A stretch of DNA of 64,000 bases from Chryseobacterium vaccae (GTDB taxonomy: Bacteria; Bacteroidota; Bacteroidia; Flavobacteriales; Weeksellaceae): positions 992,001 through 1,056,000 of the forward strand of contig NZ_VSWH01000001.1 in the NCBI RefSeq assembly GCF_009602705.1. Direction: 5' to 3'. Positions 53,617-61,995 of this stretch are shown one piece after another. The first letter of the stretch is position 1, and each line of letters opens with the position of its first letter. The translations under genes and the position numbers were made by a program. The notes under the pieces were generated by a model. It was not told the origin of the DNA and made no database searches. It saw only the letters and a list, made by a program, of their open reading frames with translations.

Positions 53617-53742
53617 ATGAAAAAAATTCTATTCCTGTCCCTCACTGCCAGCCTGCTTATTTCCTGTAGTTCCTACATTGACGAGCCGGTAATCATTACA
53701 GATCCTGTAAAAGAAATTCTTCAAAAATTATTATCTTCGTGA
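53617..53742 (+). CDS. Small lipoprotein frame whose end is made by a CRISPR repeat
   Basis: A 41-codon frame starting MKKILFLSLTASLLISCSSY, a textbook lipoprotein signal with Cys17. It runs on through DEPVIITDPV into the first CRISPR repeat, which encodes the last 11 codons (KEILQKLLSS and the TGA stop). It could be an intact mini-lipoprotein or, more likely, a larger gene truncated where the array begins. Repeat R0 differs from consensus only in its first 16 bases, the part that overlaps the lipoprotein coding sequence most naturally. Confidence 0.5.
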   Translation: MKKILFLSLTASLLISCSSYIDEPVIITDPVKEILQKLLSS

Positions 53743-56680
53743 TTAGTCACAGCTCAGCAAGAGAAATTTAATGATCTTCTGGTGCTGTGAAGAGCCTTCA
53801 AAATTTATTATCTTCGTGATTAGTCACAGCATAGCTAACGAGAAATTATCAGGTGATATGGCTGTGAATTGCTTTCAAAAATTATTATCTTCGTGATTAG
53901 TCACAGCCTTCCGGGAGCGCTGACGTTAAATAATCGTGTTGTGAATTGCTTTCAAAAATTATTATCTTCGTGATTAGTCACAGCTCTTTGAGCAGTAGTG
54001 CTGCAACAGTTCAAGTTGTGAATTGCTTTCAAAAATTATTATCTTCGTGATTAGTCACAGCGCCTCAGTATTAGCATCGAAAACAATTTGCGTTGTGAAT
54101 TGCTTTCAAAAATTATTATCTTCGTGATTAGTCACAGCTCCAGGGCGGTAGACAACATGGCCGTTGTTGTTGTGAATTGCTTTCAAAAATTATTATCTTC
54201 GTGATTAGTCACAGCTCTTTGAGCAGTAGTGCTGCAACAGTTCAAGTTGTGAATTGCTTTCAAAAATTATTATCTTCGTGATTAGTCACAGCGCCTCAGT
54301 ATTAGCATCGAAAACAATTTGCGTTGTGAATTGCTTTCAAAAATTATTATCTTCGTGATTAGTCACAGCTCCAGGGCGGTAGACAACATGGCCGTTGTTG
54401 TTGTGAATTGCTTTCAAAAATTATTATCTTCGTGATTAGTCACAGCCTGGCCCCAGTTAAAATGGTTCGTCTGAATGTTGTGAATTGCTTTCAAAAATTA
54501 TTATCTTCGTGATTAGTCACAGCAGCATTCCAAAAGGACTGGTAAATAACTACGTTGTGAATTGCTTTCAAAAATTATTATCTTCGTGATTAGTCACAGC
54601 AGCTTTTAAGTGTACCGATACTGTAGGCGGGTTGTGAATTGCTTTCAAAAATTATTATCTTCGTGATTAGTCACAGCAAATAGATTTCATTTCATCAGCC
54701 GTATCACGTTGTGAATTGCTTTCAAAAATTATTATCTTCGTGATTAGTCACAGCGCTGAGTTCACCATTAGCACAAACAGTTCTGTTGTGAATTGCTTTC
54801 AAAAATTATTATCTTCGTGATTAGTCACAGCTGACATAGAATTTCATTATGATTGTACCTGGTTGTGAATTGCTTTCAAAAATTATTATCTTCGTGATTA
54901 GTCACAGCAGAAGCGTCTTGCACCTGCTCAAGCGTTCCGTTGTGAATTGCTTTCAAAAATTATTATCTTCGTGATTAGTCACAGCTATTTCCGGCTGTTC
55001 GCATCCATCGTAATAGTTGTGAATTGCTTTCAAAAATTATTATCTTCGTGATTAGTCACAGCTTGTCGTCGTGTATTCTGTACCAAATCATAGTTGTGAA
55101 TTGCTTTCAAAAATTATTATCTTCGTGATTAGTCACAGCAATAATTCTTCAAACCTTTTCAGAAAACAAGTTGTGAATTGCTTTCAAAAATTATTATCTT
55201 CGTGATTAGTCACAGCAATTCCATTTGGCGAACTCATTATCGATTGGTTGTGAATTGCTTTCAAAAATTATTATCTTCGTGATTAGTCACAGCAGATATA
55301 AAAAAAGCAATGGAAAGCAATGAGTTGTGAATTGCTTTCAAAAATTATTATCTTCGTGATTAGTCACAGCTTCTTTTTAAACCTCAACGCCTTTTGATAG
55401 GTTGTGAATTGCTTTCAAAAATTATTATCTTCGTGATTAGTCACAGCAATTAAATTCTACTTCAGAGCTTTCTTCCTGTTGTGAATTGCTTTCAAAAATT
55501 ATTATCTTCGTGATTAGTCACAGCTCCCAATGCTTTTTCTTTTTGTTTGATCCTGTTGTGAATTGCTTTCAAAAATTATTATCTTCGTGATTAGTCACAG
55601 CATCAAACTTATCAATTTCATACCCTTCTGGGTTGTGAATTGCTTTCAAAAATTATTATCTTCGTGATTAGTCACAGCGAGAAAAGAGGTCAAAACATTA
55701 AAGGTAAAGTTGTGAATTGCTTTCAAAAATTATTATCTTCGTGATTAGTCACAGCTTTTCCAGTTGTGAATGATTTGCCCTTGTGGTTGTGAATTGCTTT
55801 CAAAAATTATTATCTTCGTGATTAGTCACAGCGGGTTTAAGTTTTGTAAGGCTTAAACAATAGTTGTGAATTGCTTTCAAAAATTATTATCTTCGTGATT
55901 AGTCACAGCCAACCTTTCCGTTGGAAATCATGTGCAGCCGTTGTGAATTGCTTTCAAAAATTATTATCTTCGTGATTAGTCACAGCTTCTAGCATTTTCT
56001 TCTGCGACTGCCTTTCGTTGTGAATTGCTTTCAAAAATTATTATCTTCGTGATTAGTCACAGCATGGGGTAAATGTTGATCATTGTAAGTAAGGTTGTGA
56101 ATTGCTTTCAAAAATTATTATCTTCGTGATTAGTCACAGCTTTTATGCTCAGCATTAGACATATCATATTGTTGTGAATTGCTTTCAAAAATTATTATCT
56201 TCGTGATTAGTCACAGCTTAGAAAAGTATTAGGACTTGGAACTATTAGTTGTGAATTGCTTTCAAAAATTATTATCTTCGTGATTAGTCACAGCAATATT
56301 ATATTCTATTTAGTCCTGGCATTAGTTGTGAATTGCTTTCAAAAATTATTATCTTCGTGATTAGTCACAGCCGTTTTCTATGTAAGTGTCTTTGAATTGG
56401 TCGTTGTGAATTGCTTTCAAAAATTATTATCTTCGTGATTAGTCACAGCTTCTCCTATTCTGTCCTTTTTGTAAAAACAGTTGTGAATTGCTTTCAAAAA
56501 TTATTATCTTCGTGATTAGTCACAGCTATTCACTTTGTAACTTGGGCTGAAACCAAGTTGTGAATTGCTTTCAAAAATTATTATCTTCGTGATTAGTCAC
56601 AGCCATAATCTCTTTGTTTTGTTTCTTTGCTTCGTTGTGAATTGCTTTCAAAAATTATTATCTTCGTGATTAGTCACAGC
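53707..56680 (+). CRISPR. Type II-C CRISPR array: 39 repeats of 47 nt, 38 spacers
   Basis: The consensus repeat begins GTTGTGAATTGCTTTC and ends ATTAGTCACAGC (47 nt). Spacers are 30 nt, except one of 31 nt (56372-56402). The first repeat (53707-53753) is diverged in its 5' third, the second (53784) has several changes and the third (53861) one; from 53938 on the repeats look identical. Three spacers (53985-54168) recur in the same order at 54216-54399, leaving 35 distinct spacers. The ends GTTGTGA and TCACAGC can pair. Pairing to the tracrRNA shows crRNAs are read on the plus strand. The array converges with cas2 on the terminator at 56685. Confidence 0.98.
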
Positions 56681-56684
56681 CTCA

Positions 56685-56719
56685 AAAAACAATCTGCTGA
56701 AAATCAGCAGATTGTTTTT
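56685..56719. terminator. Shared terminator of array and cas operon
   Basis: AAAAACAATCTGCTGA (56685-56700) pairs perfectly with TCAGCAGATTGTTTTT (56704-56719). A 16-bp stem with A and T ends works in both directions. Confidence 0.85.
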
Positions 56720-56737
56720 GTTTTTAGGATTTAAAAA

Positions 56738-57966
<1,229 letters not shown>

Positions 57967-57971
57967 AATTA

Positions 57972-60900
57972 TTATTCTCCTATTTTGGTAATTTCTCCTA
58001 AATGATTCAATCTGACTTTTATTGGATTTAAAGAAAATAAAGAGCCTAAACTTCTAATATTATAAAGTCTTTTACTTTCTTTAGCTCCATCAGTTTTCTT
58101 TAAATCAGAATTTTTAGTTTCTAAATGATGCCTGAACCAATAATTATTTTCAGAAATACTCCATACCAAATACAAATATTTACTCAATAAAGATTTATCA
58201 TTATTTTTTCTTGCTTCATCAAATTCATCTTGCGATAAACCCAGAATAAACATTTCATTTTGCTGCATACTGAACTTCAAATTGAGTTTATCAGCTGGTA
58301 ATTTATTCAAAAATGATCCTGGAAGTTCTTTATCTAATAATTGGCTCCAAACATCTGATGAATTTCCAATAACAGCAGGAATATTATATTTTTTCCTTTC
58401 TACTGCATGCCAAAATGTACAACTGTGCTGAACAAGCTTATTATCTTTATCTTCATAAATGGCGATATGATGATTATTTCCTGTCAGAACAAAGCCTATA
58501 TCTTTACCATCTTTGTCTTTCTTAATTGTCTGTAAATTATTAGCATCGGGACGGGCAAACAAACGGACTGTTATAATCGGAATTTGTTTTTCCTCATTAA
58601 ACCAAAGGATATCTTTGAAAGCTTCCTTTTCCTTATTTCCAAATTGAGCAAGTCTTTCTTTTACCAAAAATTTTACTTTTTCATCAACAATATCATCGGC
58701 TTGACTTGCTTTTAAATTTTGTAATTTATATTTCAATACCGTTGCATCATTGTAACAAGATGCTTTTTCTAGAATTTCAGAATTTTCTTCGTTTAAAAAG
58801 ATTGGATTTTTCTTTAATGTTGATAAAGCCTTTTTAGAATTATTTTCATTTTCTGAAAGCCTTGTTTCAACAAGATTTTTAATCCCTGGATTTACAATTT
58901 TATCTGAGTTTTCAAATAAATATTTTAAAGGTTTATCATTCTCAATTACTTTTATTTTCCCATAAACAGATTGTTCATGTAAAGCTCCTCTTGGAACAAT
59001 CACACCTGTCGCTTTATTTTTTCCTGTCGCTTTAAATTTGGTTATTGTTGCTACTTTTTTACCTGCTTTAAAAGAAATTAAAACCCTGTCTGCTTCTTGC
59101 ATCACTTCTTGTGTACTAAAAGGTTTCTGAGTTTTTAGATACTTTTCTAAAAGTGTAGTTTTTTCATTAAATTCTATTTTAGCTTCCTCAACTTCTTTTA
59201 CCATCAAATCTTTTGTTTCACTCGAATTCAAAGTATTTATCCTATGAATAAAACTTTGTCTTGTACAGGCAATTACCAAAGCATCAATCGCGTGATGACG
59301 ATGATCATCTCTTTTTGTCCAGTTTTCGATTTCTTCTTTTTGATGTTTTCTTTTTCCGTGTTCGCTTGTCCACTCTTTGGTGACGGTTTGTCCTAATTCT
59401 TTGTATTTAGGCATTTGAAGATTCATTAAAACATCATCCCAACCCCATAAATTACGGAGTTTTGCAGTCACTCCACCTTCTGTTGTTGTTACATTATTGC
59501 ATATTTTATGTAAAATATCCCTTGATTTGCGAGAAATATATTGAGTATCCCTCAATTGTCTGTCAATGAAATTTTCCCAAAGCTTTTTATCTGTTTCCGT
59601 TTCTTTTCCAAGTTTCTTTCTTTCAAGATATTCTTTATGTGAAACTTTCAGCCTTTGCATTTTACTGTAAGAGATAATTCCTCTCTTGAACCAGTCATCC
59701 ACCCGTTCCGAATATACCCTAACCTGTTCATCGCCTTTTGTCGCAATGTAATCGTACGCAGTTTGATTCGTTTTTGTTGAGTTGCATTTTCGATGAACCA
59801 AAACTTTGTTGGTCTGAGAGTCATCAAACAATAAAGCTTTCGGTACAATATGGTCAACATCATAAGCATCTCCACTTAAAGCTTCTGTTAAATTGAAGAT
59901 TTCTCCACAATAAATACATTGATTATTGACGTGAGCATCTTTCAGATTTTTACTAAGTGATGGAAATATGAACTTATATTTTTGAATGTACCGTTTGGTT
60001 TCAGGCAAGCCTAATTCAATCAGCCTTTTTCCGATTTCTTCATTAAGTTTTTTATTTTTAGAATTTTGTAAATCGGTCTCGTTTCGCTCGTCTTTACTTT
60101 GTTTAAGCTCACGTGCAAGTTCAACTCTAATTTCAGATGGTTTTCCGTATTGCTCAAGAATTGCGTTAACCACATTAATCATCTGGTTCAGAATTTTCTC
60201 AACAATAGGTTGTCTCAAACTATTTTTAGGAAGAAGCTCTAATCGGCTTAAAGTAATTTGTTGTTCTTTTTCTTCTTTCGTCAGAGAATTGGAATGATTA
60301 TAGCCCGCTAAGCTACAAGATTGAGAATAATTATAGCCTTCCATCAGAAAAGGAAGAATTTTTCTCATCGATTTATTCGATTTATTTCCGAAAGCCTGTT
60401 TATTAAAATCGATACTAGATAACTTTTCGGCAACTTCTTCATCAAAATCAAATCTTTTAATTAAAGCATTTTTACATTCATCTAAATCCTTCAGAGAATA
60501 AATGGTATGCCACAGTTGATACAACGGCTCTCTTTCCAATGATGCATCAAGTTCAAGTCCTGCTCTTTCTTCAAGAATTTCTCCTGTCCTCTTATCTACC
60601 AATATCGCAGTATAATTTGAAGTAATGATAGATACATCAAAATTCAAAAGTTCATTATCGCCTAAAACACTATGAAGAACTGCATATGTTTCATTTCCTT
60701 TAATGCCTTTCAGGATTTGCTTGTTCACATATACATTTTCTCTTTTTAATTCTAAAATTTCGAGAAGTTTAGTAAAGCTTAAATTTTCATTTTTAAATAA
60801 ATAATCTGCTAAAATTTCCTTCTCCTTTAAATCCGGAATTTTTTCACCCCATTTATATTTGCTTCCTTCTGGATTTTTTATTTTTAATGTAATTGTATTC

Positions 60901-61781
60901 ACAACTTCCCAGATTCGGCAAAGCTGAAACAATGGAGACGTTTTAGGAGCAACTTTTGGCCCGACAAATACCAATTTATTTTTGTTTTTTCCCTTATCAA
61001 AAATAGTTTTCTCAAAGCCTTCAAATTCACAGATACTCACTAATCCTTTTTGAGATTTCAATTTCCTTTGAAAATAAATGATTTCATTTCTTAATTGATG
61101 AACCACCTTATCTGTAAGAAAATCGTGTTTGTCTTTTTGAGCATTAATAATAGTATCAAACTCTTCTATATAAGCTTCTCTTGGATAAACTTCTTCTTTG
61201 ATTCTGAAATACTGCTGATTATTTTTGTCTGAAAACGCGTTAGAAAGTCCTTCATAAAAATACTGCCCAATAGTCTGATTTCTGTCTTTTAACTGAGCGT
61301 AACGTCCTTTTACCGCCTGAACGTAATCTGTATCTTTTTTGTCGGAATTAGCCTCACTTCTGGCAGACTTATAACCTCTTTTCTGATTAAGCATATAGAG
61401 AATACGCCCTAATTGTTCTGCAGAAATATTTTCATTAGGATTAGCAGAATCACTTCTCAGTTTCCATAAATCAAGCATTGGAAGTTTCAATAATTCTTCT
61501 GATGGGAAGATATTGTATTTTTTTAGAATTTTCTTTAAATCACTTTTCTTTAATTGTTTTCTATCATATCCTTTTCGCTGAGTACGGCTTACTGTTCTAC
61601 TTTGATTTTTTGTGATTGACAAACCTCTTTGAAATTCTTCTTTATCACTTGTTGACAAAGGAATTATTCTGGAGCCCATTGCAATAATGCGAATAGGAAT
61701 ATTATTTTCATTAACCTCTATTAAGGCCCAGCCAATGGAGTTGGTTCCCAAGTCTAATCCAAGTATATTTTTAATCATCAT
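57972..61781 (-). CDS. cas9: CRISPR-associated endonuclease Cas9 (type II-C)
   Basis: A 1269-residue RNA-guided nuclease. RuvC-I is GLDLGTNSIGWALIEV (Asp10). The Arg-rich bridge helix follows (SRTQRKGYDRKQLKK, about 63-77). RuvC-II is IRVELARELKQ (Glu about 554), HNH is DVDHIVPKALLFDDSQTNKV (His644, with the NxxxHRKCNSTK follow-up), and RuvC-III is HHAIDALVIA (Asp833). The zinc-type CIYCGE precedes HNH. All catalytic residues are intact, so the enzyme should cut. Two ATGs start the gene (61781 and 61778). Its divergent neighbour is the tracrRNA. Confidence 0.97.
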   Translation of the reverse strand: MMIKNILGLDLGTNSIGWALIEVNENNIPIRIIAMGSRIIPLSTSDKEEFQRGLSITKNQSRTVSRTQRKGYDRKQLKKSDLKKILKKYNIFPSEELLKLPMLDLWKLRSDSANPNENISAEQLGRILYMLNQKRGYKSARSEANSDKKDTDYVQAVKGRYAQLKDRNQTIGQYFYEGLSNAFSDKNNQQYFRIKEEVYPREAYIEEFDTIINAQKDKHDFLTDKVVHQLRNEIIYFQRKLKSQKGLVSICEFEGFEKTIFDKGKNKNKLVFVGPKVAPKTSPLFQLCRIWEVVNTITLKIKNPEGSKYKWGEKIPDLKEKEILADYLFKNENLSFTKLLEILELKRENVYVNKQILKGIKGNETYAVLHSVLGDNELLNFDVSIITSNYTAILVDKRTGEILEERAGLELDASLEREPLYQLWHTIYSLKDLDECKNALIKRFDFDEEVAEKLSSIDFNKQAFGNKSNKSMRKILPFLMEGYNYSQSCSLAGYNHSNSLTKEEKEQQITLSRLELLPKNSLRQPIVEKILNQMINVVNAILEQYGKPSEIRVELARELKQSKDERNETDLQNSKNKKLNEEIGKRLIELGLPETKRYIQKYKFIFPSLSKNLKDAHVNNQCIYCGEIFNLTEALSGDAYDVDHIVPKALLFDDSQTNKVLVHRKCNSTKTNQTAYDYIATKGDEQVRVYSERVDDWFKRGIISYSKMQRLKVSHKEYLERKKLGKETETDKKLWENFIDRQLRDTQYISRKSRDILHKICNNVTTTEGGVTAKLRNLWGWDDVLMNLQMPKYKELGQTVTKEWTSEHGKRKHQKEEIENWTKRDDHRHHAIDALVIACTRQSFIHRINTLNSSETKDLMVKEVEEAKIEFNEKTTLLEKYLKTQKPFSTQEVMQEADRVLISFKAGKKVATITKFKATGKNKATGVIVPRGALHEQSVYGKIKVIENDKPLKYLFENSDKIVNPGIKNLVETRLSENENNSKKALSTLKKNPIFLNEENSEILEKASCYNDATVLKYKLQNLKASQADDIVDEKVKFLVKERLAQFGNKEKEAFKDILWFNEEKQIPIITVRLFARPDANNLQTIKKDKDGKDIGFVLTGNNHHIAIYEDKDNKLVQHSCTFWHAVERKKYNIPAVIGNSSDVWSQLLDKELPGSFLNKLPADKLNLKFSMQQNEMFILGLSQDEFDEARKNNDKSLLSKYLYLVWSISENNYWFRHHLETKNSDLKKTDGAKESKRLYNIRSLGSLFSLNPIKVRLNHLGEITKIGE

Positions 61782-61867: not shown

Positions 61868-61875
61868 TATATTTG
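61868..61875 (+). promoter_or_regulatory. -7 box of the tracrRNA
   Basis: TATATTTG fits TAnnTTTG and places the RNA start near 61879. No good -33 box was seen. Confidence 0.55.
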
Positions 61876-61878
61876 TAT

Positions 61879-61957
61879 TAATAATTTTGAAAAGCAATTC
61901 ACAATAAGGATTATTCCGTTGTGAAAACATTCAAGGCGGGGCAACTCGCCTTTTTTC
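61879..61957 (+). ncRNA. tracrRNA
   Basis: The stretch 61882-61906 is the inverse complement of the first 26 nt of the CRISPR repeat: after reversal, 23 of 25 positions match, the two mismatches lying together (TC for CA). Next comes AAGGATTATTCC, a short hairpin like the tracrRNA nexus. Then comes GGCG-loop-CGCC with a T run (61933-61957), the terminator. The gene is divergent from cas9, a normal II-C position. Its complementarity fixes the crRNA strand as plus. Confidence 0.85.
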
Positions 61958-61995
61958 GTTTTAAAATCCTATTTTAGCCATCCGAAAACAGAACA

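Follow-up and report, generated by a model that had tools for sequence, protein, structure and literature searches.

Probable spacer acquisition at the downstream, cas2-proximal end of a decaying type II-C CRISPR array in Chryseobacterium vaccae: a likely polarity for related arrays

A 64,000-nucleotide (nt) stretch of the Chryseobacterium vaccae genome (contig NZ_VSWH01000001.1, positions 992,001 to 1,056,000; hereafter, the window) carries an array of clustered regularly interspaced short palindromic repeats (CRISPR) beside cas2. The repeats are degenerate at the left end, where the reading of CRISPR RNAs (crRNAs) apparently begins, and uniform up to the right end. At which end, then, are new spacers added? 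Sequence comparison suggests that this is a Chryseobacterium type II-C CRISPR–Cas9 locus with downstream acquisition beside cas2 and a decaying left end; a probability of about 0.94 is assigned to this reading. The array and its first repeats are as follows.

53707..56680, plus strand: CRISPR array; 39 repeats (47 nt each), 38 spacers; crRNAs oriented left to right
53707..53753, plus strand: repeat 1 ('extra', probably the oldest), 10 changes at positions 3–13; putative 3′ promoter half intact
53784..53830, plus strand: repeat 2, five changes, four of them within positions 1–16
53861..53907, plus strand: repeat 3, a single change at position 2

Mismatches to the consensus number 10, 5 and 1 in the first three repeats from the left and 0 in the other 36, which agrees with the degeneracy confined to the left end that had been described in an initial annotation of this DNA. 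The '16-base divergence' given there for repeat 1 is correct in that the repeat has diverged, but the difference actually amounts to 10 substitutions, with the other 37 positions matching.

The same gradient recurs in related loci. The best 80 of 120 Cas1-based relatives were taken as named loci, and 46 stretches were taken from the 92 genus genomes with Cas1, some of them repeating a species; the genome collections compared hold one genome per species. The 127 sources parsed (126 related loci and the window) yielded 113 arrays, 14 having none, and collapsing identical spacer lists left 97 non-redundant arrays. Polarity was counted in 89 of these, the window included, which have a left flank of at least 150 nt and at least four repeats. 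Of the 89 arrays, 75 have a mutated terminal repeat at the cas2-distal end and 2 at the cas2-proximal end, and the right terminal repeat is worse than the left in none; left-end decay is thus polarised beyond chance. Because terminal repeats exceeding 19 mismatches were trimmed before the count, decay is underestimated: four of the 14 'intact' left ends carry a further, more decayed remnant, which brings decayed left ends to 79/89. Among arrays of at least eight repeats, the leftmost fifth holds 73 of the 144 mutated repeats other than first ones (last repeats being counted). Of the 80 named loci, 67 have at least three repeat matches, and in all of these the orientation relative to cas1 is the same; five of these 67 show one additional lone repeat match on the opposite strand.

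The two flanks of the array also differ. The elements at the right-hand junction are listed below.

56681..56737: downstream (3′) leader, 57 nt between the array and the cas2 stop; a CTCAA box beside the last repeat, then a hairpin
56685..56719: leader stem, 16 base pairs (bp), with a T-rich tail on the plus strand

Ungapped pairwise identity over the 10 nt adjoining the array is 0.82 on the right and 0.29 on the left; the left flank is unconserved, and a leader upstream of the first repeat, as in subtype II-A, is not seen there. CTCAA stands at the start of 93 of 96 right flanks. Perfect stems of 8 bp or longer were found in 80 of the 96 leaders, compared with 5 of the 88 left flanks and 31 of the 1920 simple shuffles; a T-rich tail accompanies the hairpin in 63/96 leaders. 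The initial annotation had placed a leader between 56681 and cas2 as one of two options, and the segment 56681–56737 does recur in the 96 right flanks as a CTCAA box followed by a palindrome. A conserved 3′ leader, like a degenerate oldest repeat at the 5′ end of transcription, is a mark of II-C systems with downstream acquisition, and both are found here.

There is no doubt that the leader hairpin recurs as an inverted repeat, and covariation supports it in part. Two-sided changes affect 161 stem cells in 90 distinct leaders, compared with 54 in shuffled data (0/500 as high), and paired cells drop from 90% to 31–53% when the stem partner is slid by 1–3 columns. Relatedness can inflate such cell-based measures, while counts of pairs and of pair types suffer least. 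The hairpin may terminate transcription of the converging array and cas operon, form part of the acquisition signal, or do both. The terminator scan alone is no evidence, because the two terminator-like sites in the window region, one of which is the leader hairpin, compare with a mean of 2.5 in shuffles.

The direction of reading is indicated by the trans-activating CRISPR RNA (tracrRNA), which is predicted upstream of cas9.

56738..57076, minus strand: cas2 (NCBIfam TIGR01573)
57073..57966, minus strand: cas1 of type II, cas1_NMENI (NCBIfam TIGR03639, 288.9 bits against a cut-off of 120)
57972..61781, minus strand: cas9, Csn1 (NCBIfam TIGR01865)
61868..61875, plus strand: TATATTTG box upstream of the tracrRNA; it fits TAnnTTTG, the consensus of the −7 element
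61885..61958, plus strand: putative tracrRNA, starting with the anti-repeat and ending in a GC hairpin and a T run
61885–61904, plus strand: anti-repeat TTTTGAAAAGCAATTCACAA, upstream of cas9, for the plus-strand repeat

The anti-repeat stretch AAAGCAATTCACAA occupies 61891–61904 on the plus strand, just upstream of cas9. The predicted duplex of the intact repeat with the tracrRNA region has an energy of −27.8 kcal/mol, compared with −15.3 ± 3.0 kcal/mol for 200 shuffled repeats. Since the intact repeat pairs with a plus-strand anti-repeat region beyond the shuffled level, crRNAs would be read from left to right on the plus strand, as had been proposed initially. Corresponding values for the decayed repeats are −12.6 kcal/mol for repeat 1, no better than shuffled, −17.6 for repeat 2, inside the shuffled range, and −25.8 for repeat 3. 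The crRNA of spacer 1 is therefore predicted to lose tracrRNA pairing, because repeat 2, which forms its tail, pairs only at the shuffled level; spacer 1 is probably a silent memory.

The contiguity of cas2, cas1 and cas9 on one strand, beside a repeat–spacer array, is that of a type II locus, as is the predicted pairing of an anti-repeat with the repeat. The locus holds cas9, cas1 and cas2 only, without csn2 or cas4, as in subtype II-C; between 61782 and 64000 there is no closed frame of at least 80 amino acids, frames running off the window end not being listed and no family search having been made there.

Decay of the left repeats is half-sided: the 5′ half that would pair with tracrRNA is lost, and the putative promoter core is usually kept. 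In the 75 mutated left repeats, positions 1–16 are changed in 556 of 1200 cells and positions 17–47 in 158 of 2325 (157/2025 without the TAnnTT core). The core, repeat positions 26, 27, 30 and 31, is changed in 1 of 300 cells, and TAnnTT is retained in 74 of these 75 repeats. Conservation looked too good in this set because the four most decayed remnants had fallen below the identity threshold. With the remnants added, core cells are changed in 8/316 cases against 188/2133 for the rest of positions 17–47 (P = 3e-5 by a Fisher test, which assumes independence of positions and of related arrays); positions 1–16 are changed in 602/1264 cells, and TAnnTT is retained in 74 of the 79 decayed left repeats. 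The longer motif TAnnTTnG is found in 97/97 consensus repeats; a −33 TTG element at a fixed position was not found in the decayed left repeats. Bacteroidota promoters differ from the sigma-70 type, and a sigma-70 promoter scan gave 15 sites against 13.1 in shuffles, no better than chance.

A mechanism consistent with these features can be outlined. Cas1–Cas2 would insert each new spacer at the junction of the rightmost repeat and the 57-nt leader, copying that repeat. Because the rightmost repeat would be copied at each insertion, the right end would remain uniform and the left end would be the oldest. Insertion at the junction of the last repeat and the leader, suggested here, has been reported by others in Riemerella. 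A promoter in the 3′ half of each repeat, of which the core is seen and the activity presumed, would fire rightwards into the next spacer, so that transcription would need no upstream leader and the two usual jobs of a leader would be split. Within a repeat, the 5′ half would provide the preceding spacer with its tracrRNA-binding tail, and the 3′ half would provide the following spacer with its promoter. As there is no spacer to the left of repeat 1, its 5′ half would be free to drift, or would even be favoured to do so, avoiding an empty guide; its promoter half would usually be kept, serving spacer 1. The leader hairpin may also stop transcription between the convergent array and the cas operon.

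Comparative evidence on the acquisition end comes from phages. An array search of phage records found 12 of Riemerella type; 11 were compared, the twelfth being the RefSeq copy of RAP44. Two of the mini-arrays are given here as examples.

L165:2440-2620: RAP44 mini-array, cas-less, II-C type
L166:2440-2780: CRP19 mini-array, with two extra units; further RAP44-like records are L197–L205

In each of the 11 records, a degenerate repeat is followed by a 30-nt spacer, an intact repeat and a host-like leader, CTCAAAAATAAACCCATTGATTTTCAATGGGTTT, which stands at the right end. The CTCAA box and the palindrome adjoin these mini-arrays without an annotated cas2 beside them. The first spacer is common to CRP19 and the 10 other records, GDF21 deviating by one base, the last of the spacer. 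CRP19 has two additional units with the same new spacer, placed immediately in front of the leader and nowhere else; its nearest relative in flanking DNA, GDF21 (99.4% over 77% of the query), has a single spacer. Spacers shared on the left and differing on the right are thus present in phage mini-arrays of the same repeat family, and the parsimonious reading of the CRP19 units, a gain at the downstream leader end, supports acquisition there. The initial proposal that new spacers enter at the cas2-proximal end and that the left end is the oldest accordingly draws support from the decay counts of 75/89 and 2/89, the leader found on the right only and the phage mini-arrays.

The targets of the phage spacers fit the direction of reading. 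The older spacer has a 27/30 match in the tape-measure gene of another GDF21 record (L220:401-430, PP067980.1), with three mismatches in the 5′ half of the spacer; this may be a near-self match, the target phage bearing the same mini-array, and for that reason it is no clean case of rival targeting. The newer CRP19 spacer has a 29/30 match in each of two genomes among 320 family genomes (L218, L219, L223). In one of them, the target is a gene of unknown function about 0.7 kilobases (kb) after an integrase-like gene. Both genomes are probably Riemerella, because they have a Riemerella-like repeat and leader and, in genome G310, also a prophage of which parts are 94–97% identical to Riemerella phages. 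On their 3′ side, the targets are flanked by CAATAA for the older spacer and by CAATAC for the newer one in both genomes. The Riemerella motif GWATTN has been placed 5′ of the protospacer, counting from the cas2 side (PMC6008519). On the other strand, this motif would read NAATWC, which the newer spacer's flank matches at 6/6 positions and the older one's at 5/6, and such a match at the 3′ flank agrees with reading of the crRNAs in the direction of the leader.

That cas-less phage mini-arrays of this repeat family bear a downstream leader of their own is the least expected by-product of the comparison. Downstream leaders adjoin phage repeats in the 11 Riemerella records, the G310 prophage and contig L179, in contrast to a passage stating that bacterial phage mini-arrays lack leaders (PMC6858448). 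The virus-borne mini-arrays described in that article resemble the Riemerella phage ones in being cas-less, with one or a few spacers and a host-like repeat and leader; they are, however, archaeal, and the leader precedes the array, whereas it lies downstream in the Riemerella phages. Since a II-C leader is short and downstream, mini-arrays that seem leaderless may in fact have one. It is tempting to propose that mini-arrays thought to be leaderless carry a downstream leader and grow by Cas1–Cas2, the phages relying on host Cas proteins to keep their record of other mobile elements current. The chances of this proposal are put at slightly below even, confidence being lowered by the location of the older target in an array-carrying phage. 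No publication on Riemerella phage mini-arrays was found among the matches listed, in a search whose scope mostly excluded subscription journals; a term search of the GDF21 paper did not return the word CRISPR in the text covered (PMC12845321).

Several further occurrences were noted in phage sequences. The G310 prophage has a solitary intact repeat with a leader near the tape-measure gene (L221:7665-7780). A Riemerella-type phage contig retains only the leader and a repeat remnant (L226:6140-6228), and its neighbouring genes begin like those of L221. An IMG/VR phage contig (L179:7870-8115) has a two-spacer mini-array with a degenerate first repeat, variable repeat length and a downstream palindromic leader, and a tape-measure gene lies about 1.6 kb away. 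A leader-pattern scan of viral contigs gave three matches, L177, L226 and L227; L177 was rejected as a phage leader, being probably the end of a host array, and L227 as probably a chance match within a gene. A 17-mer scan (30 stretches, L167–L196) found a repeat-like sequence in single copy in several viral contigs, including L175, L182 and L188. The mini-array of the record named 'Shigella phage Henu10' (L205, OQ791282.1) coincides with that of Riemerella phage PT15 down to the record coordinates, which makes the host label of the Henu10 record doubtful.

Downstream acquisition has to be weighed against three other explanations. If the left end were the leader end, as in II-A, acquisition would take place upstream at 53707 and the left repeats would differ for some other cause, e.g., recombination. 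This is very improbable: sequence on the left is not conserved, it is the right flank that has the CTCAA box and hairpin, the repeat most often mutated would have to template every new repeat, and right-end acquisition has already been reported for Riemerella (PMC6008519). It is also improbable, though less so, that there is no classical leader, Cas1–Cas2 integrating at the last repeat regardless and the hairpin being merely a convergent terminator. The T-rich tail of many leader hairpins and their place between convergent units would suit such a terminator, but it does not explain a near-invariant box lying outside the stem, nor a box and palindrome beside phage mini-arrays that lack an annotated cas2.

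The remaining explanation accepts acquisition on the right and concerns the cause of left-end decay, which would be mainly adaptive: selection against tracrRNA pairing of the first repeat would stop an extraneous crRNA from occupying Cas9. Such a role, proposed in PMC12080349, would account for the clustering of changes in positions 1–16 and for pairing of repeat 1 that is down at the shuffled level. The same pattern is nevertheless expected from relaxed constraint on a useless half combined with purifying selection on the promoter half, and positive selection has not been definitively shown according to the same article. Repeat 2 of the window is also changed mostly in positions 1–16, to the detriment of spacer 1, and in the 22 mutated second repeats taken together, positions 1–16 hold 43 changes and positions 17–47 hold 34. 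A mainly adaptive origin is accordingly considered rather unlikely, although less so than the two preceding explanations.

Some observations weigh against downstream acquisition with left-end decay as set out above. Ten of the 89 arrays have no recognisable decayed left repeat, and inner repeats are mutated too, in 144/3028 cases (a set different from the 144 non-first repeats counted above). No exact spacer is common to any two of the 97 non-redundant arrays, and the 3252 spacers contain no cross-locus pair at up to three mismatches. Spacer sharing between species was therefore rejected as a direct test of the acquisition end. The 30 spacers of IMG/VR contig L174 equal the first 30 of L085, a match that is uninformative because L174 stops at the contig edge and is probably the same array. 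TAnnTT is lost in all four left remnants below the identity threshold. In the leader stem, pairs with two-sided changes number 7 against 6.8 in shuffled data, no better than chance, and pair types 22 against 19.5, weakly above it (24/500 as high). Instead of a gain in CRP19, units could in principle have been lost from the other records, or the CRP19 assembly could be in error. Orientation tools disagree on II-C arrays, and subgroups with different acquisition ends have been suggested (PMC12638026).

Published systems provide close parallels to downstream acquisition at the C. vaccae locus. II-C arrays have been described as acquiring spacers via the last repeat and having a promoter in each repeat; extra (first) repeats are mutated in 60% of cases, compared with 5% for others, mostly in the first 15 nt, and the first repeat is regarded as the oldest and as extra, the discussion suggesting that it must keep its promoter (PMC12080349). 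Nothing essential in the passages cited differs from the group studied here, which adds one bacterial group (75/89) and position counts for TAnnTT. Several studies have been cited for 3′-end acquisition in II-C (PMC12638026). In Riemerella, new units were experimentally inserted between cas2 and the array (PMC6008519). CRISPR1 of Riemerella anatipestifer, also II-C, shares with the window a 47-bp repeat, 30-bp spacers, the order cas9–cas1–cas2, an array beside cas2 and a palindrome in the leader, and most of its unique spacers are at the cas2 end (PMC5006608, PMC6008519). A 16-nt anti-repeat upstream of its cas9 fits the repeat of the window (PMC5006608). Its leader is 107 bp long, compared with 57 here; the authors treat the cas2 side as upstream, and the passages cited report no repeat promoters (PMC5006608, PMC6008519). 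The II-C locus of Flavobacterium columnare resembles the window in its 3′ leader, putative repeat-borne promoters and a terminal repeat marked in a figure, with transcription towards the leader on eight array reads, and differs in its 36-bp repeat, toxin–antitoxin genes inside the locus and acquisition shared with a VI-B array (PMC8092290). An article on Chryseobacterium lists II-C systems with cas1, cas2 and cas9 in two species (PMC10634447); the word leader is absent from the searched text of that article, and a term search of another Chryseobacterium article gave no matching passage (PMC7761591). Downstream acquisition, repeat promoters and decay of the first 15 nt of the first repeat are thus all published for II-C, and nothing here is new in principle; the arrangement in the window is the described II-C arrangement, ordinary for its kind and without anomaly.

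Two other features of the window array are listed here.

53938..54399, plus strand: three-unit duplication, spacers 4–6 recurring as spacers 7–9
56372–56402: spacer 35, 31 nt, the sole non-30-nt spacer of the array

The other 37 of the 38 spacers are 30 nt long. Internal spacer duplications occur in 27 of the 97 arrays, often as several units in order. A second array with the same repeat was not found in the genome. Whole-array searches revealed no clear protospacers of the window array in phage and plasmid records; the matches were to 13 phage records (Riemerella-type repeat copies and one weak match) and two plasmid records with weak repeat-like matches. In Rfam, the array region gave a sub-threshold minus-strand match to CRISPR-DR50 (E = 0.38; 28.9 bits, the gathering score being 47), and the leader gave sub-threshold matches to two small RNA families; neither result is counted as strand evidence.

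For this array family in Chryseobacterium and its relatives, the orientation is likely settled: the newest spacers should be beside cas2, where transcription would end. Whoever dates spacers, orients arrays with software or seeks a leader upstream would arrive at a reversed order. The short conserved leader motif offers a handle for spotting arrays competent for acquisition, phage-borne ones included, and the phage mini-arrays with their downstream leader hold what interest remains.
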